This document shows, one piece after another, positions 6,347-24,162 of a stretch of 25,707 nucleotides of DNA. The DNA lies in the IMG/VR virus record IMGVR_UViG_3300050821_005596, positions 1 through 25,707 of that record; one strand, given 5' to 3'. Below the pieces are notes generated by a model. The model had not been told where the DNA came from and ran no database searches. It saw nothing but the letters and a program-made list of their open reading frames with translations. The DNA comes from a virus. The position numbers and the translations under genes were made by a program. Within the stretch, counting starts at the first letter, position 1, and every line of letters begins with the position of its first letter.

Positions 6347-6832
6347 ATGCCCCGAAAACCCACAGGAAAACCCACAGGCAGACCCGTCAGAGACTTCGAT
6401 AAAGCAGTCTTCGAAGAACTCTGCCATATTAACTGCACAATGAGCGAAATAGAGAAAATATTTCATACACAAGATGATGTCCTAAAACGATGGTGCGAAA
6501 GAACCTATGGAGCCTCTTTACAGGAAATCTACCACAGATATTCCGACGGTGGAAAGGCGTCCATAAGACGTAACCAAATCAAGCTTTCAGCAACCAACGG
6601 ATCAGTCGCCATCTGGCTAGGAAAATGCCTCCTAGGACAGCGCGACCCACAAGAAGCGGATAACACACAACGCATTGTCGGCGCACTAGAAAATATACGC
6701 CGCCTCGAAATAGTAAACGAATGCCGCGCCGCCATCAAAAAGGAAGTAAATGAACAATTCTCCAAACGACGAGATATTGAAGTTGTCACAGAAGCAGTAC
6801 GACAGCCTGATGGCCCCGAAGAAACGGTTTAA
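6347..6832 (+). CDS. terS: Terminase small subunit
   Basis: The 161-aa protein starts with a basic GKPTGRPVRDFD arm, then a helix-turn-helix (residues 16-50; FEELCHINCTMSEIEKIF, then DDVLKRWCERTYG). The phrase SIRRNQIKLSATNGSVAIWL, then GKCLLGQRDP, is the usual ending of the DNA-recognition part in small terminase subunits, which bind the packaging site on concatemeric DNA. A helical tail probably makes the oligomer. The end overlaps the large subunit gene by 83 nt, the common phage order. Confidence 0.88.
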   Translation: MPRKPTGKPTGRPVRDFDKAVFEELCHINCTMSEIEKIFHTQDDVLKRWCERTYGASLQEIYHRYSDGGKASIRRNQIKLSATNGSVAIWLGKCLLGQRDPQEADNTQRIVGALENIRRLEIVNECRAAIKKEVNEQFSKRRDIEVVTEAVRQPDGPEETV

Positions 6833-8060
6833 TATCTGGATAGGTGCCGTCCGTTCAGGTAAGTCCTACTCTTCCCTCATATGCTTCGAAGACTTCTGCA
6901 AGAATGGACCCCCAGGAGACTTCGCGGTAATAGGCCAGTCCATAGATGCCATCAAACGCAATGTCATCGCGCCCCTCACAGATATGATGGGCGACCGCAT
7001 GAGCGTGTCCATAGGTAATAGAATCGCTCACCTATATAACAGAAAAATACACCTCATAGGCGCAAACGATGAAAGAGCCGAACGGAAAATCAGAGGCTGT
7101 ACCCTAGCCGGCGCCTATGTCGATGAGATAACGATCCTACCCGAGGTGGTATGGAATACACTGAACTACCGCCTAAGCCTTCCAGGGGCTAAGCTGTTCG
7201 GTACCACCAACCCCGACTCACCCTTCCATTGGCTCAAAAAGAAGTGGATAGACCTCGCCGATGACCTCGATATACAGACATGGAACTTCACCCTCGAAGA
7301 TAACCCATCCCTCGATCCCATATTTGTCGCAAATCTACGAAAGGGCTATAAAGGGCTGTGGTATGAACGATTCATTGAAGGCAGATGGGTCCTAGCAGAA
7401 GGGACGATATTTGATTTCTTCGACCGTAGCCTACACGTTATTGACTTCCCTCCTGGCATTGCCGAGTATTACATTGTCGGCGTGGATTATGGTACGACTA
7501 ATCCTACGGCTTTCAGCCTCATTGGCTATTCCTCCAAAACTTATCCCAACAGGTGGCTTGAGAAAGAGTACTATTGGGACTCAAAAAAGACCCTTCGACA
7601 GAAAACGGACACAGAATATGCGGAAGATCTGCAAAAATTCATAAAAAATTACCCCCAAGTGCGTGCGATATACATTGATCCATCGGCCGTTTCATTCCGG
7701 GTCGAACTCAGGCGCCAAGGCTTCAATGGCGTCATCGAAGCACAGAACGAAGTCCTTGATGGTATACGCTATCATTCCATCCAGCTGAGCAACGGAACGT
7801 TCAAGGTATGCCGCAACTGCACCAAGTCTATAGAAGAGTATGGTACGTATAGATGGGATGCCAAGGCCTCGGCCCATGGCGAAGACAAACCCCTCAAAGA
7901 GAACGACCACCTGATGGACTCTATCCGCTATGCCCTCTACTCCGAATGGTTCCAGAAGGAAGGTCCCCGAATGACGGCCGAGGATGTCGAAAGGCTTAGA
8001 CGCGAAGCGCAGGGAGGAGACATGGGACACGGCAAATTCTTTGATGATAAGATGTGGTAG
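6750..8060 (+). CDS. terL: Terminase large subunit (PBSX/P22-type ATPase-nuclease)
   Basis: The 436-aa motor has Walker A GAVRSGKS (residues 32-39), Walker B AYVDE (122-126) and the coupling motif GTTNP (151-155). The RNase H-like nuclease has Asp246 in VGVDYG, Asp310 in YIDPSA, and Asp386/Asp390 in DHLMDSIRYA. It pumps DNA into the prohead and cuts it. The length is usual for the family. ATG 6750 lies inside the small subunit gene after GGAAG. Ile codons here are mainly ATA: 9 of the first 15, the rest ATC. This matches the tRNA-Ile(UAU) at 9394. Confidence 0.95.
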   Translation: MNNSPNDEILKLSQKQYDSLMAPKKRFNIWIGAVRSGKSYSSLICFEDFCKNGPPGDFAVIGQSIDAIKRNVIAPLTDMMGDRMSVSIGNRIAHLYNRKIHLIGANDERAERKIRGCTLAGAYVDEITILPEVVWNTLNYRLSLPGAKLFGTTNPDSPFHWLKKKWIDLADDLDIQTWNFTLEDNPSLDPIFVANLRKGYKGLWYERFIEGRWVLAEGTIFDFFDRSLHVIDFPPGIAEYYIVGVDYGTTNPTAFSLIGYSSKTYPNRWLEKEYYWDSKKTLRQKTDTEYAEDLQKFIKNYPQVRAIYIDPSAVSFRVELRRQGFNGVIEAQNEVLDGIRYHSIQLSNGTFKVCRNCTKSIEEYGTYRWDAKASAHGEDKPLKENDHLMDSIRYALYSEWFQKEGPRMTAEDVERLRREAQGGDMGHGKFFDDKMW

Positions 8061-8749: not shown

Positions 8750-9133
8750 TTGAAAGCTACGATAGATATTCATTGTTTGAAATGCAGATGTTCCGGTCGA
8801 ATCTCGGAATTCGATGGATTCAAATGGAGACCAATTGGAAGTATAATTGATTTCCGGCGTCTACATTTGGTTGAGTGCTACGGATTGCCTAGAGGCTATG
8901 ACCCGAGATATGATGATGAAAATGAGGATGCGGAATCGCCGCCTACAATATCTGAAATGTTTGATATGAAGATCACTGATCAGGATGGCCGGCCGGTAGA
9001 TCCTAAAGACCCCGCCTTATCTGAGATAGGAGTTAGTTCATATCCTGATAAAATCTCTTCCGAATCATATGTAGTGGAGCGCAAAGGATACGTTCCCAAT
9101 AGTTTTAGCCAATTTAAATCATTTTATGAGTAG
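8750..9133 (+). CDS. Hypothetical protein (127 aa), TTG start
   Basis: Translation most likely starts at TTG 8750. A strong GAGAGG lies 9 nt upstream and the TTG is one base after the previous stop. The N-terminus KATIDIHCLKCRCSGRISEF contains Cys9, Cys12 and Cys14, and Cys43 lies in LVECYG; a partial metal site is possible. The middle is acidic (DDENEDAESPP), and the C-terminal half has Pro/Asp-rich turns. No family is recognised. Confidence 0.62.
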   Translation: MKATIDIHCLKCRCSGRISEFDGFKWRPIGSIIDFRRLHLVECYGLPRGYDPRYDDENEDAESPPTISEMFDMKITDQDGRPVDPKDPALSEIGVSSYPDKISSESYVVERKGYVPNSFSQFKSFYE

Positions 9134-9138
9134 AGTGA

Positions 9139-9378
9139 ATGATGCAATGGGTAAAACATTCAGATCGAGAAATGCCCAAAGATGGCAAAATCTATCTGGT
9201 CTGGGGTGGGGGATTCTTCCATTTGGGGAAATGGTCGGATGAAATTAAATCATATACCTATTCAGATGACTATCTAAAATTTCCCGGATTAAAGGATGTA
9301 GATGAATTGACCGACGTGTCTGGTATTAGTTGGTGGGATGAAAGTTCAAAAGTAAATGGCGTCGAGGAACCCGAATGA
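9139..9378 (+). CDS. DUF551-like small protein (79 aa)
   Basis: MMQWVKHSDREMPKDGKIYL, then VWGGGFFHLGKWSDEIK, matches the DUF551 pattern WxxxxxxMPxDGxxxLVW...GxW and ends with ISWWDES in place of the usual THWxP. It is distantly related to the 8545 protein and lies in the same cluster, so the two may come from tandem duplication. ATG 9139 is doubled (ATGATG), with GAG five bases before. The gene ends 15 nt before the tRNA. Confidence 0.62.
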   Translation: MMQWVKHSDREMPKDGKIYLVWGGGFFHLGKWSDEIKSYTYSDDYLKFPGLKDVDELTDVSGISWWDESSKVNGVEEPE

Positions 9379-9393
9379 TTGAATGGCGAACGA

Positions 9394-9467
9394 GGACCAA
9401 TAGCTCAGCTGGTTAGAGCGGCACTCTTATAAGGTGTATGTCGCCGGTTCAAGTCCGGCTTGGTCTA
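9394..9467 (+). tRNA. tRNA-Ile(UAU), reading AUA codons
   Basis: The acceptor GGACCAA pairs with TTGGTCT (first pair G-U). The D stem is GCTC/GAGC, the anticodon stem GCACT/GGTGT (two G-U pairs), the anticodon loop CTTATAA with anticodon TAT at 9428-9430, and the T stem GCCGG/CCGGC with loop TTCAAGT. The discriminator is A, and CCA is not encoded. UAU is unusual in bacteria, where AUA is normally read by a lysidine-modified CAU tRNA. It matches the strong ATA bias of terL. It lies between the small genes and the portal. Confidence 0.93.
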
Positions 9468-9887
9468 TACTAAGGAGATCATATGTATCAGGGCAAGCGC
9501 TGGTGGGACCGTAAAGAAAGAATATTGAATGAAAATCTTTTAGACGCCTGTCCATTTCTATGGGACCCGACTAACGAAAGGAGTAACGGCAGAATCTTCG
9601 TTGATCTGTGTCAGCGGGTAAATGGTCCTAGAGATCATCGTACCTACCATGTGGTAGAGATATTTTTTTCATGGGCTTTTGGATACGATCATTACGAGAA
9701 CTCCAGGAGAATATGGTATCCGGACCTTTGGAATCTCCAGCATTATCGTTATCAGTTGACGCCCGAAGACTTCTTTGCCGATCGATATGCTTTTATTTGG
9801 GCACGCTGGCTTCGTTTCCGTTCTACCGCCGAAAGGCTGAAAGTGATGCTAAAGACCGGGCATCCTGTGTGGTAGGCTTGGTCTATA
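9457..9887. repeat. 13-bp direct repeat of the tRNA 3' end flanking one gene
   Basis: GGCTTGGTCTATA occurs at 9457-9469, as the last 11 bases of the tRNA plus two, and again at 9875-9887, starting at the last base of the 9483-9875 gene. The two copies are 418 bp apart and bracket exactly one gene. A repeated tRNA 3' end is what site-specific integration at a tRNA, or duplication of a tRNA cassette, leaves behind. Confidence 0.7.
9483..9875 (+). CDS. Hypothetical protein (130 aa) bracketed by the tRNA 3'-end repeat
   Basis: The ATG follows TAAGGAGATCAT, a very good ribosome site. The protein opens MYQGKRWWDRKERILNENLL and is rich in Trp, Tyr, Arg and Asp: FFSWAFGYDHYENSRRIWYP, then LWNLQHYRYQLTPEDFFADR. 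It is soluble, has no signal peptide or transmembrane helix, and I do not recognise it. It lies between the tRNA and a copy of the tRNA 3' end, so it is probably an inserted accessory gene. Confidence 0.65.
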   Translation: MYQGKRWWDRKERILNENLLDACPFLWDPTNERSNGRIFVDLCQRVNGPRDHRTYHVVEIFFSWAFGYDHYENSRRIWYPDLWNLQHYRYQLTPEDFFADRYAFIWARWLRFRSTAERLKVMLKTGHPVW

Positions 9888-9942: not shown

Positions 9943-12033
9943 ATGGTCTTATTTCCCCAGATAGACACGCTCTATTATACAGACGAAGATAGGTCCATCC
10001 ATCAGATGATGGAACACTTCTACGAGTCATCCATACAGATCAATCAGAGTTTTTGGAGCGAGGCTGATATCGATGCGCGCTTTGAAGCGGGCGATCAGAC
10101 ACTATGGAATGATGTATATGGGAATCTACCCGCTTTTAGGCGGCGCCAGCTGACGTTTAACCGCATTAGGCGCATCACTAATATGATAGGCGGTTATCAA
10201 CGCCAGCATCGTTTTAGCACCATTGTTACGCCCGTGGGTAATTCGGATGAGCAGACGGCCGACCAGTTGAGTCGTACGCTTATCCATGTGAATGAAAACG
10301 GCAATGTGCTCGAGACTATTTCCGAAGCATTTCATGGCGGCGCTCTCGTCTCTGGAATGAATCTGCTATCGGTATGGATGGACTACCGCCAAGATCCCAT
10401 CAACGGCGATATTCGAGTCGACAACACATCGTATAACGAATATTTGATAGATCCTTTCTTCAAGAAGCTCGACCTTTCCGACTGTAGGGCGCTATGGACC
10501 CGTAAATGGTTATCTAAGGTAGAGATCAAGTCCCTTCTTCCCGACAGAGATAAAGAGATAGATCAGATAATGCCCCGTGGATGGCGTGATGGCAAGTTTC
10601 AGTTTCAGCCTGAAGCCTATAACTACGCGATGCAAGACCTTATCAACTACGATGAATTCTATCATCTAGACTACAGACAAAGAAAACTTTTAGTTGACTC
10701 TATCACAGGTGAAACTCTGGAGTGGAAGGAAACTAAAGATTCTGGTGAACGTTTGGCTGAATTCCAAGGCAAATTCCCCCAGATTATGGTCGTAGAACAA
10801 ACCATTCCTACGGTCAAATTGGCTATTGTGGTGAATGGGCGCACGATGTATCACGGCCCGAATCCCATGGGCATCGACCGATATCCTTTTGTGCCCATTG
10901 TGGGCTATTATACTCCTCACATACCATACTTTCCCTGGCGTGTGCAGGGCGTTACAAGGGGTCTACGTGATGCGCAATATCTCTACAATCGTAGAAAGAT
11001 CATCGAGCTTGATATCTTAGAGAGTCAGATTAACTCTGGTATCAAATACAAAGAAGATTCTTTAATCAACCCCAAAGATGCGTTCCTCACAGGTCAGGGC
11101 CGGGCTCTTGGCCTAAAGAAAGAGGCCGATATGGGCGACGTCGAGGTGATGCAGCCTCCACAGATTCCGCCTTCAATGATTCAATTGTCGGAGATCTTGG
11201 GCAAAGAAATGGAAGTGATATCAGGCGTTAACGAAGAACTACTTGGAAGCGCGGTAGACGATAAGTCGGGCATATTATCCATGCTTCGGCAAGGTGCGGG
11301 CTTGACAACCTTGCAAATCCTCTTTGACCAGCTCAATACCGCACAGAAGTATCTTGGAGAGATATGCCTGGACCTCATCCAAGCCAACTTCAGTCCGGGC
11401 AAGATCAAGCGTATCTTAGGTGAAGAACCTACACAGCAGTTTTATTCCAGGGCATTCCAGAAATACAATTGCGTTGTCGAAGAAGGGCTTAATACCTCTA
11501 CACAGCGTCAGATGTCTTATGCACAGCTCCTCGCCCTTCGCGAGTCCGGCATCCCTGTTCCCACGAAGGTGCTCATCGAGACAAGTACCATGCAAGGCAA
11601 GAAGAAGCTTATCGAGGCTATCGAGCAGGAAGAGCAGAAGGCGGCTCAGCAGGCCGAAGAGGTCCATCAATATCAGATGGCTCTCCAACAAGCACAGATA
11701 GAGTCTATGAAGTCCAAGGCTTTGGCCGACCAAGGGCTTGGCGCCGAACGTGTCGCGCGTATCGAAGAGAACAGGGCCCTTGCCATCGAACGTGTAGCCG
11801 AAGCACAGAACCAGCGTTCCCTCGCGGCCTACCACGAGATCAAGGCCTCACAGGAACTGGAACATATGGATATCACTGGCCTAGAGAAGCTGCTCGGTAT
11901 CTTGCACACCATCCAGGAATCCAAGCGTGCAGCCGAACAGCATGATCTTGCCCTATTGCAAGGCCATCACCAGATGAAGATGCAACAGCAGGGACAGCAA
12001 CAAAATGTTGAAAAAGAAATGGCTCAAGTTTAA
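9943..12033 (+). CDS. Portal protein, P22 gp1-like
   Basis: This 696-aa protein matches P22-type portals: residues 55-110 (FRRRQLTFNRIRRITNMIGG, then YQRQHRFSTIVTPVGNSDEQ) are the typical N-terminal core. NEYLIDPFFKKLDLSDCRAL and GVTRGLRDAQYLYNRRKIIE are wing and stem parts. Residues 540-690 form a long Gln/Glu/Ala-rich coiled coil with many EEQKAAQQAEEV-type segments, like the barrel of P22 portal (725 aa). Twelve copies would form the DNA entry ring at the vertex. The ATG follows TTTAGG. The codon frame is continuous and no key part seems lost. Confidence 0.93.
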   Translation: MVLFPQIDTLYYTDEDRSIHQMMEHFYESSIQINQSFWSEADIDARFEAGDQTLWNDVYGNLPAFRRRQLTFNRIRRITNMIGGYQRQHRFSTIVTPVGNSDEQTADQLSRTLIHVNENGNVLETISEAFHGGALVSGMNLLSVWMDYRQDPINGDIRVDNTSYNEYLIDPFFKKLDLSDCRALWTRKWLSKVEIKSLLPDRDKEIDQIMPRGWRDGKFQFQPEAYNYAMQDLINYDEFYHLDYRQRKLLVDSITGETLEWKETKDSGERLAEFQGKFPQIMVVEQTIPTVKLAIVVNGRTMYHGPNPMGIDRYPFVPIVGYYTPHIPYFPWRVQGVTRGLRDAQYLYNRRKIIELDILESQINSGIKYKEDSLINPKDAFLTGQGRALGLKKEADMGDVEVMQPPQIPPSMIQLSEILGKEMEVISGVNEELLGSAVDDKSGILSMLRQGAGLTTLQILFDQLNTAQKYLGEICLDLIQANFSPGKIKRILGEEPTQQFYSRAFQKYNCVVEEGLNTSTQRQMSYAQLLALRESGIPVPTKVLIETSTMQGKKKLIEAIEQEEQKAAQQAEEVHQYQMALQQAQIESMKSKALADQGLGAERVARIEENRALAIERVAEAQNQRSLAAYHEIKASQELEHMDITGLEKLLGILHTIQESKRAAEQHDLALLQGHHQMKMQQQGQQQNVEKEMAQV

Positions 12034-13713: not shown

Positions 13714-14034
13714 TTATGATGATGTCTCCTTGGCATCTTTTTCCTTCATCTTTTTGCGCAGGGCTAACAGTGCCGATAGAGCGTGGACGTCTTCTTCATC
13801 ACCTTGGAATAAGATCGCAAAATTTCCTTCTGGATAGCTTCGAAGCAAGGGACTGAAATCACCAGTGGTTTTGTTAGCCTCCGAAAAAATCACTATGGCC
13901 GACAAAAGCGCGCCATCTAAGAAACTCTTTGGGTCTTCAATCATCATTGGAGTAAGCAGTTGGACAAACTTTTGCATGAAAGGATCTCGGAAACCCTCAA
14001 AAAAGGACATAATTTCTTTTTCAACGTCTTTCAT
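13714..14034 (-). CDS. Hypothetical protein (106 aa), paralogue of its neighbour
   Basis: I chose ATG 14034 because GGAG lies six bases before it; ATG 14046 is the other candidate. The C-terminal part GNFAILFQGDEEDVHALSAL, then LALRKKMKEKDAKETSS, corresponds to ISLVLFEGNMEDCEALREFL, then KLRQKMKNGDSDERR, of the next gene, so the two are tandem paralogues. The middle LLTPMMIEDPKSFLDGALLS is helical. It ends the minus-strand cassette. No family is recognised. Confidence 0.62.
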   Translation of the reverse strand: MKDVEKEIMSFFEGFRDPFMQKFVQLLTPMMIEDPKSFLDGALLSAIVIFSEANKTTGDFSPLLRSYPEGNFAILFQGDEEDVHALSALLALRKKMKEKDAKETSS

Positions 14035-14386
14035 CGCTATCTCCATTTTTCATTTTCTGTCTTAACTTGAGAAATTCGCGTAAGGCTTCACAGTCTTCCA
14101 TGTTGCCTTCAAATAATACTAATGATATGGGAATTTTTCTTATCGTAGTCGCGCTCCAATTTCTAAAAAGAGGTTCATGATCGTCTATTAATCCACTTAA
14201 AGTTCCAAAGCTGACTGCAGCAATATCATAACAGGCTTCTGAGATCGCTAAAAAGCATGGAACCCGTCTCTCTGGAAGAGCCTGTTCCACTATGTAGGCG
14301 GACAATTTTGTAAATATATCTAATATCGTTGCTTCCATATCTTTTTCTAGAAGTTTTTTTATCTCATCTGGCTTAGGTATATTCAT
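14021..14386 (-). CDS. Hypothetical protein (121 aa), paralogue of its neighbour
   Basis: ATG 14386 follows GGGAG with a 7-nt gap and overlaps the stop of the previous gene (ATGA). The sequence MNIPKPDEIKKLLEKDMEAT, then ILDIFTKLSAYIVEQALPER, gives way to ALREFLKLRQKMKNG at the C-terminus. It shares the motif IxLVLFEGxxEDxxALxxFLxLRxKM with the 13714 protein. It is soluble and helical. The function is unknown; being kept as a pair suggests a complex or divergence after duplication. Confidence 0.64.
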   Translation of the reverse strand: MNIPKPDEIKKLLEKDMEATILDIFTKLSAYIVEQALPERRVPCFLAISEACYDIAAVSFGTLSGLIDDHEPLFRNWSATTIRKIPISLVLFEGNMEDCEALREFLKLRQKMKNGDSDERR

Positions 14387-15244: not shown

Positions 15245-15684
15245 CAGTCCTTTATCCTTGGTTTAGTGTTCCAGTCTTCGGGTGGATAGGGCGCATGAGT
15301 CCAATAAACATGATAGAGATCTGTAGCCAATCTAGCACAATGTTCCTCGCGGAACAAAAAAATCATGGGTCCACACATTTCCGGCACCAAAGCTATCACT
15401 GGTTTATTGAGGGGGGGTATCTCTATTCTGGAGTCGTTCCATTCAGAAATATGAGCTTGATCAAAGCGAGGATATGGAATCCAATGGGTGATTCCTTCAA
15501 TCCATTCTGCAGTAGCCTCCTCGATTCTATTAAGTCTCTCAACAAATTCGTCGTAATCTTCCTCTCCATCGTAAGACATATCTTCATCAGATATTTCTAA
15601 ACAAATCTCATCAAGCACACCCTCTCTCCAGACAAGGACTCGTTCATATCTAGGAGGTATTTCATCTTCAACGCGCGTCCACAT
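15244..15684 (-). CDS. DUF551-like protein with two repeats (146 aa)
   Basis: ATG 15684 overlaps the upstream stop (TGATG); GTG 15687 is an alternative start. The first DUF551-like unit MWTRVEDEIPPRYERVLVWR ends EWIEGITHWIPYP, and a second SRIEIPPLNKPVIALVPEMC ends LYHVYWTHAPYPPEDW. The typical signature is W(x)PxxxxxVLV...ITHWxP, here doubled. At 146 aa it is about twice the usual size, so it likely arose by internal duplication or fusion. Function unknown. It is acidic and soluble amid membrane proteins. Confidence 0.68.
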   Translation of the reverse strand: MWTRVEDEIPPRYERVLVWREGVLDEICLEISDEDMSYDGEEDYDEFVERLNRIEEATAEWIEGITHWIPYPRFDQAHISEWNDSRIEIPPLNKPVIALVPEMCGPMIFLFREEHCARLATDLYHVYWTHAPYPPEDWNTKPRIKD

Positions 15685-15899
15685 CACTTATTCCTGTAGC
15701 GTTCTTCGATGGCGCAGAGCCTACCATGGAAGTCTTTGATTTCTTGCTGAATGGCAATAATTTGTGATTGTATGCCCTGCATCATAGAAAGCATTTGGCG
15801 GTTATCAGCCCTACTTTCCGACCTACTCCAAAGAAAAAGTGGAAGTACCCACGCTGCATTACCGAAAACGATCACTAAAACTTGTATCCAATCCATCAT
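15684..15899 (-). CDS. MDW-family membrane coiled-coil protein (71 aa)
   Basis: The sequence MMDWIQVLVIVFGNAAWVLP, then LFLWSRSESRADNRQMLSMM, contains one transmembrane helix (4-24) with a basic SRSESRAD cap. It continues QSQIIAIQQEIKDFHGRLCA and IEERYRNK as a coiled coil. It is a paralogue of the gene at 15896: the 16-residue ending IKDFHGRLCAIEERYR is identical. ATG 15899 overlaps that gene's stop (ATGATG) with GGAG before it. Related copies sit at 22987 and 23254. Function unknown. Confidence 0.72.
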   Translation of the reverse strand: MMDWIQVLVIVFGNAAWVLPLFLWSRSESRADNRQMLSMMQGIQSQIIAIQQEIKDFHGRLCAIEERYRNK

Positions 15900-16129
15900 T
15901 TGCTCCTATACCGCTCTTCGATAGCACATAGTCTTCCATGGAAGTCTTTGATCTCTTGTTTGATATCCATGGAAATCTGTAGAAGATCTTTTCTATCCGC
16001 AGCAGCGATGGCAGCCGCTTCCCGTCTATCAGCGTTGGCCTCTGTTCTCAGACAGAAGAACATACCAATCATGGTCAGATACATTCCCGCTGTCGTAGCC
16101 AGTAAGATGGCGAATTGATTCCAGTCCAT
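15896..16129 (-). CDS. MDW-family membrane coiled-coil protein (77 aa), first gene of cassette
   Basis: ATG 16129 follows GGGGG; upstream codons to 16183 would be inside the promoter and are excluded. MDWNQFAILLATTAGMYLTM, then IGMFFCLRTEANADRREAAA, is a transmembrane helix (6-28) with a charged cap, and the coiled coil ends in DIKQEIKDFHGRLCAIEERY. It resembles a small type I anchored coil. It is the promoter-proximal gene of the minus-strand cassette. The family occurs four times in the window. Function unknown. Confidence 0.72.
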   Translation of the reverse strand: MDWNQFAILLATTAGMYLTMIGMFFCLRTEANADRREAAAIAAADRKDLLQISMDIKQEIKDFHGRLCAIEERYRSK

Positions 16130-16154
16130 ATTTTTCCCCCTGTTTATGTCCTTC

Positions 16155-16183
16155 AATATAGCAATTCGACCGGCCTTTTGCAA
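16155..16183 (-). promoter_or_regulatory. Promoter for the minus-strand cassette
   Basis: TTGCAA (16178-16183) lies exactly 17 bp from TATATT (16155-16160, minus strand), matching the consensus boxes in 4 and 5 of 6 positions. Transcription would begin near 16148, about 20 nt before the start of the 15896 gene. It gives the cassette independent expression, opposite to the late genes. A perfect TTGACA also occurs further upstream on the same strand near 16245-16250, but lacks a good -10. Confidence 0.6.
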
Positions 16184-17162: not shown

Positions 17163-18817
17163 ATGATTACCACGTCCTCAGTGCTTCCTGCACCGGTACA
17201 ACAATCGTTTAGTTATAAATTATTGTCTGTACCTGTTCCCTACATGATCCACAAGATACCTGCCCAGTTTAAGAATATGCCACGCAATGGTGGTACTACT
17301 CTTAGAATGCGTCGGTACAATCCATTGGCTACTGCTACAGTACCTTTGGGTAATAGTGGTATCACACCTCCTCCACAACAGCTCACCTCTGTTGATATTG
17401 ATGCCAAGATTGACTTCTACGGCACATACGTATACTTGAATGAACAGGTAACGCTCCAGAACCAAGACCCTGTACTAAACGAAGCCGCACAACGTCTTGG
17501 CGTGTCTCTACGTCAGACCGAGGACGAGCTCACACGTAACATGCTTGCGTCGACGGCTTCGTTCATCAACTGCGTGGGCGGTACTAATGGGGATAACCCC
17601 ACAGAAATGGCTAGAAGCGACGTTGACAACGTGGTTCAGACCCTCGCTGGCAATAACGCTTACACCATCGCGGACAATATCGAGGGCGACGACAAGTTCG
17701 GTAAAGTGTGTGCCGAAGTAAAATCTTCTCTGATTGACTTGGAACTCCTCGCTGCCTGATAGGCGGACGGAAGACAAGGGCGAAGGCTAATTAATGCCTC
17801 TTTTATTAAGGACTTTGAGTTTATGAAGACATTCAATTCGAAAGGCCAAGACCTCGGGGGAAACTCTATAGGAAGTCTTTTCCAAAAATGTTTTTCTAAA
17901 CTCCAGCATGATTTCAGCATGTTCCTTTTTGCAGATAAGATATGGGATGATCAACTTAAGAAGCTGATCCATCAATTTTCTGGTGGTATACCATTCATAT
18001 TGAAGTCTCCATTTAGGGTTATGTTTGGCTCTGTTTTTATGGAAAAGATTGCCGCCAAATTTGGCGTGAATCCATTCCATAAGTTTCTTATCGGTGTTAA
18101 CGATTTGAAAGCGTGGAAAATAATCAATTGCATCCGATCGCTGTCTCGATTGGATATATATAGATCCTTCTCCGTCGATAATCCCGGCAAGGTAAGAAAG
18201 CTCTGCAACAGTCCACATGTTGTCTCCTTTTTAGGTAGATTATACCAAAAAGAGGTATTATTGGCTACGTTGAACGACTAAGTGAGAAGACGCCGCAAGG
18301 CGAAGCGATAGTCTGAACTCTATGGTAACATAGAGAGGGAGATCCGAAGAGGTTTCCCCGCCAATTATTAAATAAAACTTAATAATTGGTCACAAAAGTA
18401 ACAGAACCGACAGCTCCTGTCCGTGATAGCTATTTCGCTCTAGGTTCGACAAACCTGATAAGGACTATTGAGAACGTTTCTGGCTTCATCGCCAAAGCTC
18501 AATATCCTTATCAAGCGACTGTGCTGCGTCCTGAATGGGGCTCGATTAGCAATCTAAGATTGTTATTGTCTAGCATCGGTAGTGTTTCGCCAAATGCTTC
18601 CGGACTGGGTAATGATGTCTACAATGTATTCTGCGTGGGTATGGAAGCATACTGTTGCGTGGAACAAGATGGCTATTCGGCACAGTTCATATACCGTCCA
18701 CCTATCTATGATGGGCCACTCGCCCTGAATTCAAGCTGCGGCTACAAGTTCGCCGAAGTGCCTAGAATCCAGAACGATGCATGGGTAATAAATCTTAGAA
18801 CAACGCTGAAACCGTAA
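17163..18817 (+). CDS. Major capsid protein, N4-gp56-like, split by a group I intron
   Basis: Exon 1 is 17163-17702 (180 codons) and exon 2 is 18410-18817 (135 codons plus stop), giving a 315-aa product after splicing. Exon 1 carries the N4-gp56-type stretch VDIDAKIDFYGTYVYLNEQV, then PVLNEAAQRLGVSLRQTEDE and LTRNMLASTASF. The junction reads ...EGDDKFG then TAPVRDSYFALGSTNLIRTI, restoring the usual family sequence. Exon 2 has GFIAKAQYPYQATVLRPEWG and ends ...INLRTTLKP. It forms the HK97-fold shell. Without splicing, exon 1 would run 18 codons into the intron and stop at TGA 17757. The start follows the hairpin-masked GAGG. Confidence 0.9.
17787..18218 (-). CDS. Antisense LAGLIDADG homing endonuclease in the intron
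   Basis: This gene lies on the strand opposite the capsid gene. The 143-aa protein begins MWTVAELSYLAGIIDGEGSI, with LAGIIDGEG (residues 10-18) as the single LAGLIDADG motif. Later parts include FQIVNTDKKLMEWIHAKFGG and EYTTRKLMDQLLKLIIPYLI-like helices. One motif means it probably works as a homodimer. It cuts intronless capsid alleles so that the intron spreads. The ATG follows AAAAAGGAGACAAC. The stop lies in a hairpin loop (AGGC/GCCT) of the intron core. It is somewhat short for the family but looks intact. Confidence 0.9.
   Translation of the reverse strand: MWTVAELSYLAGIIDGEGSIYIQSRQRSDAIDYFPRFQIVNTDKKLMEWIHAKFGGNLFHKNRAKHNPKWRLQYEWYTTRKLMDQLLKLIIPYLICKKEHAEIMLEFRKTFLEKTSYRVSPEVLAFRIECLHKLKVLNKRGIN
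18239..18267 (-). promoter_or_regulatory. Intron-internal promoter for the antisense endonuclease
   Basis: On the minus strand TAGCCA (18262-18267) is followed, after exactly 17 bp, by TATAAT (18239-18244), a perfect -10 box with a 4/6 -35. The start of transcription would be close to 18232, 14 bases before the ATG, with AAGGAG between. The gene therefore does not depend on capsid transcription. Confidence 0.65.
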
Positions 18818-22986: not shown

Positions 22987-23244
22987 CTACTTGCGTTCTT
23001 TATATAGCTCTTTGATCTCACGCTGCATTTCACGTACTTCATTTTGGGATTCTCTTACATCGAACTGCATTTGCTTAACCTCTAACTGCACATCTCTAAT
23101 CTCCACCTGGATATCCAAAATAGTATGCATGGTCGCATCTATGCGGGCAAAAGTGGCTCGACGATCCGAATTTGATTCAGATCTATTCCAAAGAAATATT
23201 CCTGCTATGGTAGCTAAGAATATTGAAAACTGTGTCCAATCCAT
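22987..23244 (-). CDS. MDW-family membrane coiled-coil protein (85 aa)
   Basis: The frame MDWTQFSIFLATIAGIFLWN, then RSESNSDRRATFARIDATMH, has a transmembrane helix (5-19) and the family cap WNRSESxSDRR, followed by IQVEIRDVQLEVKQMQFDVR and a perfect-looking coiled-coil tail. It is clearly related to the 15684/15896 pair (WSRSESRAD; QEIKDFHGRL). The upstream gene stops 9 nt before its ATG. The ribosome site is weak (GAGTAAAG). It lies antisense to the structural operon, between the methyltransferase and the tail-fibre gene. Confidence 0.68.
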   Translation of the reverse strand: MDWTQFSIFLATIAGIFLWNRSESNSDRRATFARIDATMHTILDIQVEIRDVQLEVKQMQFDVRESQNEVREMQREIKELYKERK

Positions 23245-23253
23245 GATTAGTCT

Positions 23254-23463
23254 TTACTCATTTCTAGAGCGCAACATATCAATGAGCACGAAGTGTAAAG
23301 TATCTATCCTTGATATAGCCGTATCCACACTATGTGTAAGATTAGTAATATCTGTATGCAAACGATTTTCCATTCGAGACATCATCCATAGCATCAAAGC
23401 ACTGAAAACACAGAACACAGCAAATATCATTCCCAAAATAGTCCAAACTAGATTCCAGTCCAT
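23254..23463 (-). CDS. MDW-type membrane coiled-coil protein (69 aa)
   Basis: ATG 23463 follows AAGGAGG; longer upstream codons are not needed. MDWNLVWTILGMIFAVFCVF, then SALMLWMMSRMENRLHTDIT, has a long transmembrane stretch (5-28) and a coiled coil NLTHSVDTAISRIDTLHFVL. It is the most diverged of the four MDW-type copies. With 22987-23244 it forms a two-gene minus-strand insert. Its promoter is not convincingly found. Function unknown. Confidence 0.66.
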   Translation of the reverse strand: MDWNLVWTILGMIFAVFCVFSALMLWMMSRMENRLHTDITNLTHSVDTAISRIDTLHFVLIDMLRSRNE

Positions 23464-23529
23464 GAGGCGTCCTCCTTTTTGCATGATCTTACCAGCTTTA
23501 AAATTCCAGATCCACCGAAAGGAATCTTT

Positions 23530-24162
23530 ATGAATTTCCAATATAATCCAGCGGTACCCCAAGCGCAGATGGCGCCTTCGCAAAGCCAGCCCATAATGCT
23601 GGGCAATTTCCAGTATCTATGTGGTTCTGCCGGAAAGGGTCTATTGCGTGATCACAACATGCTACTCAATAACGTGCCGGCTGGCGACGGAATCCATCTA
23701 CAGACCACCTTTCTGAATCGCACAGTAAGCCCCGGATTTGCTGGCGGGAACGGCGTGCTCTATACTCAGGAGATCACTCCTCCGGCGGGGCCTGCCGCCG
23801 CACAGCTCTTCTTTGATGCAAGCAGTCCGAGTGCGCCTGTGCAACTGACCAGCCATACACCCGTCAAAGGCACGTCAGGTTTCACATATCTTCCCGGCGG
23901 TCTGATTCTCATATGGGGAAAGAATACCGCCGCGAATGGAACTGTAATATCATTTCCCAATGATCCCGCGACTTCCTCTCCTTTGATGCTTTCGGCGGCC
24001 GCATATGCCGTAGTGATCAGCGAAAACGATGGCGCCAACTTCGACTTTATCAAAGCTACACTGATCGGCCCTACCGGCTTTACCGTTGTCATCATTCGAT
24101 CAGCAGGAGGAGGACAGACAACTCCCGTAATCTTTAACTGGATAGCCATAGGACCCGCTTAA
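23530..24162 (+). CDS. Tail-fibre-like protein with a gp53-type C-terminal domain (210 aa)
   Basis: ATG 23530 follows GAAAGGAATCTTT; the upstream codons down to 23479 cross the leader of the opposing gene. The N-terminal half (GKGLLRDHNMLLNNVPAGDG, then TFLNRTVSPGFAGGNG) is not recognised. The C-terminal GGLILIWGKNTAANGTVISF, then NDPATSSPLMLSAAAYAVVI and ENDGANFDFIKATLIGPTGF, follows the pattern GLIIQWGxxxxxxxGxxVxFPxAFxxxPxVxxxxxx. That is the knob-like end found on many tail fibres. The short length suggests a fibre tip or head fibre. The stop overlaps the next ATG. Confidence 0.65.
   Translation: MNFQYNPAVPQAQMAPSQSQPIMLGNFQYLCGSAGKGLLRDHNMLLNNVPAGDGIHLQTTFLNRTVSPGFAGGNGVLYTQEITPPAGPAAAQLFFDASSPSAPVQLTSHTPVKGTSGFTYLPGGLILIWGKNTAANGTVISFPNDPATSSPLMLSAAAYAVVISENDGANFDFIKATLIGPTGFTVVIIRSAGGGQTTPVIFNWIAIGPA

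Follow-up and report, generated by a model that had tools for sequence, protein, structure and literature searches.

A putatively mobile group I intron with an antisense LAGLIDADG gene in the major capsid gene of an environmental tailed phage

Introduction

The major capsid protein gene of the tailed phage described here is interrupted after codon 180 by what is, very probably, a mobile group I intron that splices itself from the capsid mRNA and spreads by homing, with a homing endonuclease gene (HEG) of the LAGLIDADG family. The HEG lies in intron loop L6, is read antisense to the capsid gene, and is preceded by promoter-like and Shine-Dalgarno (SD) sequences of its own. HEGs in phage introns are usually described in the sense orientation, and they need to be kept from disturbing the splicing of the host gene. 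Encoding the HEG on the opposite strand, under a predicted promoter of its own, appears to be a recurring solution in this phage lineage. More than 60 non-redundant sequences carry the arrangement, which makes the timing of HEG expression, antisense interference with splicing and the retargeting of guide sequences testable.

Phage capsid introns as such are of an already known kind. What is new is the wider pattern, made up of the antisense HEG with its own predicted promoter, the dozens of insertion sites in one essential late gene and the apparent retargeting of guides; the open full texts that our literature search covered yielded no description of antisense HEGs as a systematic feature of a phage lineage (subscription papers fell outside its scope). 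The initial annotation of this DNA had recognised the intron but was incomplete, as it missed both the antisense HEG and the lineage-wide pattern of multiple introns. Introns of this family escape both automatic annotation and the general Rfam model, so that in databases the capsid genes of these phages, a common environmental group, will look broken.

The interrupted capsid gene

The window (the whole stretch of DNA analysed, an IMG/VR viral record of 25,707 bases) derives from a tailed phage, with a terminase gene at 6750-8060, a P22-type portal gene at 9943-12033 and the capsid gene downstream. Identification of the capsid gene is based on PHROG 1357 (major head protein) and a sub-threshold match to PF25209. 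Exon 1 covers positions 23-201 of the PHROG profile and exon 2 resumes at 202, the ORF at 18386-18817 matching the same family as exon 1 at adjacent profile positions. An intact homolog of 316 aa (L005) matches PHROG 1357 along its length (4.6e-29); the AlphaFold model of an intact capsid homolog had a pLDDT of 33.6 and was left out of the identification. There are 523 homologs of exon 1 in IMG/VR, and exon 2 is 87-92% identical in amino acid sequence in its closest homologs.

We compared the junction in 80 exon 1 homologs sampled from IMG/VR. In 77 of these exon 2 follows exon 1 directly, with a gap of 0, and the remaining three have inserts at the identical nucleotide (L003, 224 nt; L017, 462 nt; L043, 229 nt). 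All four inserts, including that of the window, start with AAA, end with G and contain GCCGAA, which is complementary to TTCGGT. Relatives thus hold occupied and empty alleles of one site, as is characteristic of a mobile intron. Exon 1 of L003 is 93% identical to that of the window, and its 224-nt intron has no endonuclease gene, so the window insert looks like a short intron to which a HEG-bearing loop has been added. The initial annotation had proposed that the capsid gene is split and that joining 17702 to 18410 restores it in frame, which is borne out by the contiguous homologs, the same-nucleotide inserts and the adjacent PHROG positions. The comparison with intron-less relatives, one of the checks that it suggested, gives the same answer, the 77 empty-site homologs being uninterrupted across the junction, and the truncated 198-aa product that it predicted from unspliced message agrees with a stop after 18 insert codons (Table 1).

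The intron of L017 (3873-4334), at the same capsid site, differs in its cargo. In place of the LAGLIDADG HEG, an ORF in the sense orientation runs through P6, P7 and P3; it contains two CxxC...CxxC pairs, and a Pfam search with it returned nothing better than 0.017. Its P7 has an apparent extra bulge with compensating changes.

Table 1. Coordinates of the capsid exons, intron elements and antisense gene in the window
Feature	Position	Strand	Evidence or remark
Exon 1, major capsid protein gene, codons 1-180	17163-17702	+	PHROG 1357, 1.1e-18
P1, 5' exon part TTCGGT, U at 5' splice site	17697-17702	+	Pairs with GCCGAA 17712-17717
Group I intron, 707 nt, ends with omega-G 18409	17703-18409	+	Empty-site homologs, covariance model matches
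Internal guide: TGT (P10) 17709-17711, GCCGAA (P1) 17712-17717	17709-17717	+	
P3, 5' strand	17724-17730	+	Pairs with 18284-18290; 7/7 pairs compensatory, 26 cores
P4-P5 region	17738-17778	+	P4 is 17738-17741 with 17775-17778; P5 between
In-frame stop TGA ending unspliced product	17757-17759	+	ORF 17163-17759
P6/P6a, 5' side	17779-17790	+	Overlapped by stop codon of antisense HEG
LAGLIDADG homing endonuclease gene, 143 aa, LAGIIDGEG motif, inside L6	17787-18218	-	LAGLIDADG_1, 5.5e-6
152-aa sense ORF, shadow of HEG	17823-18281	+	No family match
Shine-Dalgarno AAAAAGGAG before HEG start codon	18224-18232	-	
Extended -10 TGGTATAAT of HEG promoter (predicted)	18239-18247	-	
P6a/P6, 3' side	18261-18270	+	
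P7, 5' strand ACGACUA, bulged C, G-binding pair	18274-18280	+	P7 paired in 100% of cells
P3, 3' strand	18284-18290	+	
P8 hairpin	18291-18302	+	Compensatory change in 4/4 pairs
P7, 3' strand	18309-18314	+	
P9 hairpin	18318-18335	+	Compensatory change in 6/7 pairs
P9.1 (18337-18359) and P9.2 (18361-18389) hairpins	18337-18389	+	Drawn by sequence inspection alone
Exon 2, major capsid protein gene	18410-18817	+	PHROG 1357 from profile position 202

Splice-site pairings and ribozyme core

Comparative sequence evidence confirms the 707-nt insert as a group I intron. A U precedes the 5' splice site in the U-G pair of P1 and a G stands at the 3' end of the intron; the conserved core includes the P3/P7 pseudoknot, P4, P6 and P8; and the guide pairs with the 3' exon, TGT at 17709-17711 facing the first ACA of exon 2 at 18410-18412 (P10). 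In L043 both strands of P10 have changed (ACT pairs with AGT, compared with ACA/TGT in the window). The empty alleles fix the junction in the window and in the three relatives with an insert at this site. P1 entered the alignment scoring as a mild bonus, and P1 statistics at other sites therefore lack independence. At the codon-180/181 site, TTCGGT is present in 18/18 occupied alleles and about 19/75 empty ones (Fisher 2e-9, relatedness ignored), the empty alleles varying freely at two synonymous positions of this motif. A P10 of two or more contiguous pairs can be formed in 85% of 107 introns, compared with 28% when exon 2 is shuffled.

Introns in all the capsid genes fetched were mapped by spliced protein-to-DNA alignment, and 26 cores were aligned to a structure drawn by hand that comprises P3 (pseudoknotted with P7), P4, P5, P6, P7, P8 and P9. 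Over the 26 cores this structure is paired in 94.6% of cells, compared with 76.4% when shuffled and at most 45.1% when slid, and at 25 of its 38 pairs both partners have changed. P3 to P9 are backed by covariation or invariance, with compensatory changes in P3, P5, P6, P8, P9 and also in P10; of the peripheral helices that bear on the subgroup, neither P2 nor P7.1/P7.2 was seen. The P1 with its U-G pair, the P10 and the exact splice sites that the initial annotation had read from this one sequence are therefore upheld by empty and occupied homologs, and the P3, P7, P8 and P9 that it thought could be drawn are upheld by the aligned cores.

A covariance model built from related cores matches the window at 17718-17875 and 18245-18339 (73.8 and 50.3 bits), the match being split into two halves because the HEG is inserted in L6. 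The Rfam model RF00028 reaches 18.3 bits at a relaxed cut-off, compared with a cut-off of 50, which means that standard annotation misses the intron. At the gathering cut-off an Rfam scan of the window reported a tRNA alone, scans of L003, L017 and L043 gave nothing relevant, and related short introns score 26.9 bits against RF00028 or nothing. A covariance search had been put forward as a check on the intron, and its outcome is divided, positive with the purpose-built model and below cut-off with the general one. We read the shortfall of RF00028 as low sensitivity of a general model for this intron family rather than as the failure of a defining feature.

With these pairings, the late capsid transcript would fold so that P1 and P10 select the splice sites, an external G would attack after U17702, and the exons would be joined 17702/18410. 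The yield of phage particles might then depend on how efficiently the intron is removed, as the initial annotation suggested.

The antisense endonuclease gene

The HEG fills L6, its stop overlapping the P6a stem, and lies antisense to the capsid gene. It encodes a single-motif LAGLIDADG protein with the I-CreI/I-MsoI fold. A family profile made with 22 relatives matches I-MsoI at 5.5e-17 and I-CreI at about 1e-8, and the AF2 model of the product (pLDDT 92.7) finds I-MsoI and I-CreI as its best PDB matches (TM 0.8). The motif, together with the alpha-beta-beta-alpha-beta-beta-alpha fold of the model, points to a LAGLIDADG enzyme of the I-CreI type. When compared with the 67%-identical HEG of L318, dN is 0.23 and dS 1.77, and the differences at codon positions 1, 2 and 3 are 0.28, 0.16 and 0.44; judged from this pair, the HEG frame is under purifying selection.

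Upstream of the gene, the extended -10 is separated by a 17-nt spacer from a weak -35, TAGCCA, at 18262-18267 on the minus strand. The exact TGNTATAAT occurs once in the window, where about one occurrence is expected by chance across the whole length, so that it is the position of the match that counts and not its presence. When this upstream sequence is shuffled, a promoter score as high is obtained in 0.0004 of cases. Promoter-like matches are nevertheless not proof of a promoter. No clear intrinsic terminator was found on the minus strand between the HEG stop and exon 1.

We infer that transcription of the HEG would begin near 18230, driven by a sigma70-like extended -10 promoter of its own, and that the SD of the gene would serve its translation. 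Such signals would allow the HEG to be expressed independently of late capsid transcription, leaving the ribozyme on the sense strand undisturbed, and any advantage to the intron may lie in this timing. The product, a predicted homodimeric LAGLIDADG nuclease of the I-CreI/I-MsoI type made from the opposite strand within L6, would cut capsid alleles that lack the intron in co-infecting phages, and the intron would be copied in during repair of the break.

The antisense arrangement across the lineage

Relatives of the HEG were gathered from IMG/VR by a profile search, a search with the single sequence by exact 8-residue patterns having given no confirmed relative. Inside PHROG-1357 capsid genes, HEG domains are antisense in 84 cases and sense in 3 (65 and 3 when non-redundant). 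Antisense HEGs were the seeds of the profile, so common descent inflates the antisense count. HEG-blind samples contain about 14 antisense contigs compared with 2 sense HEGs. With HEG starts taken at least 8 codons upstream of the LAGLIDADG motif, a promoter score of 10 or more is found in 53% of 58 non-redundant antisense HEGs compared with 4.6% of shuffles, and an SD in 72% compared with 4.9%. At the level of sequence, then, antisense HEGs have promoter and SD matches of their own well above chance. In a HEG tree of 104 rows the antisense label costs 8 changes compared with 31 when shuffled, with starred branches forcing at least 3, which indicates that the antisense state is inherited, though not strictly within one clade; it is kept on deep branches of the tree.

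Outside the capsid lineage, some HEG relatives adjoin or occupy other capsid-like genes, as judged by inspection. They are in the sense orientation in L358, L366, L394 and L396, and antisense, in or beside such genes, in L331 and L337.

Many sites and movement within one gene

A total of 107 introns, chosen for a good P1 and a conserved 3' end, map to at least 48 codon positions of the capsid gene in 73 loci, which include a few near-copies, with up to four introns per gene; with a distant reference, the position of some introns is known only to within a few codons. L318, the nearest HEG relative, has an intron 72% identical to that of the window over most of its length; this intron interrupts the same gene at codon 23, where it again follows TTCGGT|AC and has an unchanged guide. 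Another relative of the window intron (L319, 68%) is at codon 178 with a different guide, matching GAGAAT, and adjoins an uninterrupted copy of the insertion site used in the window. This pattern fits ectopic movement within one gene, by re-use of a guide in the one case and by its change in the other. As whole-intron relatives, L318 and L319 are possible instances of intragenic transposition.

It is quite possible, though we would not count on it, that in this lineage the capsid gene is a common hunting ground of a single system of intron and antisense HEG, in which the nuclease is made ahead of late capsid transcription or independently of it, the introns reach new sites of the gene with guides that are changed or re-used, and the antisense RNA may in addition time splicing.

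Alternative explanations

The stop that exon 1 meets after 18 insert codons could also mean that the capsid gene is broken or frameshifted, through assembly error or as a pseudogene, and that the insert is no spliced intron. This is extremely improbable given that the reading frame is restored exactly, that inserts occur at the same site in independent contigs, that the insert ends are conserved and that P3, P5, P6, P8, P9 and P10 have compensatory changes; the same-site inserts and the 77 contiguous homologs led us to reject a pseudogene or an assembly error. The 152-aa sense ORF might likewise be taken for the gene of the intron, with the antisense ORF as its shadow, as the frame opposite the HEG is nearly open; such open frames often face a coding sequence. 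We give this next to no credence: the sense ORF is without a family match, the LAGLIDADG motif, the Pfam, PDB-profile and fold matches, the SD and the promoter are all on the antisense ORF, and the sense ORF was rejected on finding a sense-strand stop in the two closest homologs, in which the HEG frame is conserved.

Two further explanations accept the spliced intron and concern the antisense gene. The HEG may be a silent passenger that arrived backwards and goes unexpressed in this phage, in keeping with its weak -35 box and with the failure to find a clear intrinsic terminator past its stop. Against this are the purifying selection on the antisense frame seen in the comparison with L318, an intact catalytic motif in a full fold, SD and promoter matches far above shuffles throughout the lineage, and the antisense state retained deep in the HEG tree, and we consider a silent HEG quite unlikely. 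Selection may instead have acted on the antisense RNA, the HEG mRNA pairing with the intron or exon 1 and so delaying capsid splicing until late infection. The predicted promoter lies inside the intron and no minus-strand terminator was found before exon 1; a related idea of antisense interference has been put forward for myxomycete rDNA introns (PMC9548176). However, the introns of L003 and L043 at the same site have no HEG, and the antisense RNA must therefore be dispensable, which makes selection for it improbable, if a little less so than a silent passenger. A spliced, mobile intron whose antisense HEG is expressed for homing is the explanation that we prefer.

Comparison with known systems

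The closest described case is that of mycobacteriophage LittleE (Cluster J; JF937101), in which splicing of a group I intron in the capsid gene has been shown by RT-PCR (PMC3706429). As in the window, the intron interrupts a major capsid gene and a LAGLIDADG ORF lies on the bottom strand (9064-9597, minus), which a profile search places in the HEG family of the window (1.9e-31). LittleE differs in having a different capsid gene and a single intron, and its ribozyme gave no match to the covariance model built here. The available part of its description contains no lineage-wide pattern, promoter or retargeting (PMC3706429). Multiple introns are known from crAss-like phages of the Zeta and Delta groups, with several group I introns per major capsid protein (MCP) gene and five MCP fragments in one genome; they resemble our lineage in this respect, but the frames are co-directed and an antisense HEG goes unmentioned in the part of the account available (PMC7886860). 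HEGs opposite the ribozyme with a separate promoter have been described in the myxomycete nuclear rDNA group I introns Dir.S956-2 and Dsq.L2066, which, unlike that of the window, are of the His-Cys type, reside in eukaryotic rDNA, involve polyadenylation as well as spliceosomal introns, and are neither phage-borne nor LAGLIDADG (PMC9548176).

The window HEG shares with I-CreI and I-MsoI the fold (TM-score 0.8) and a single motif with its conserved acidic residue, at about 18-23% identity over the fold. Those two are enzymes of rRNA introns in algal chloroplasts. The introns of T4 td, nrdB and nrdD and of SPO1 have a group I core like that of the window, and the T4 introns carry sense HEGs. An intron core of the window's own family is found in a cultured phage, Desulfovibrio phage 7757 (L401, OR395405 78311-84405; 113 bits), but there the adjacent ORF is in the sense orientation, HNH-like and located behind an RNR-like gene, as judged by inspection. 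The RNR-like gene of phage 7757 apparently also holds an intein, the record is without annotation, and the phage is a possible laboratory test case.

Host labels and other features of the window

MAGs that carry the capsid gene have been assigned to Simkaniaceae, Parachlamydia, Methylococcaceae and Methanomicrobiales. Since these assignments contradict one another and probably result from faulty binning, no host is claimed. Capsid relatives L397 and L398 are on MAG contigs of 35-40 kb binned as Simkaniaceae and Parachlamydia, which is probably mis-binning; if that binning were true, a tailed phage infecting Chlamydiota would deserve attention.

Elsewhere in the window, a tRNA-Ile gene with anticodon TAT is located among the late genes (9394-9467). 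At 13714-14386 the minus strand has two similar small ORFs, 110 and 121 aa long, that are paralogous, and a second set of short minus-strand paralogs (15684-16183 and 22987-23583), each with a hydrophobic N-terminal stretch and a charged C-terminal half, appear to be intragenomic duplicates.
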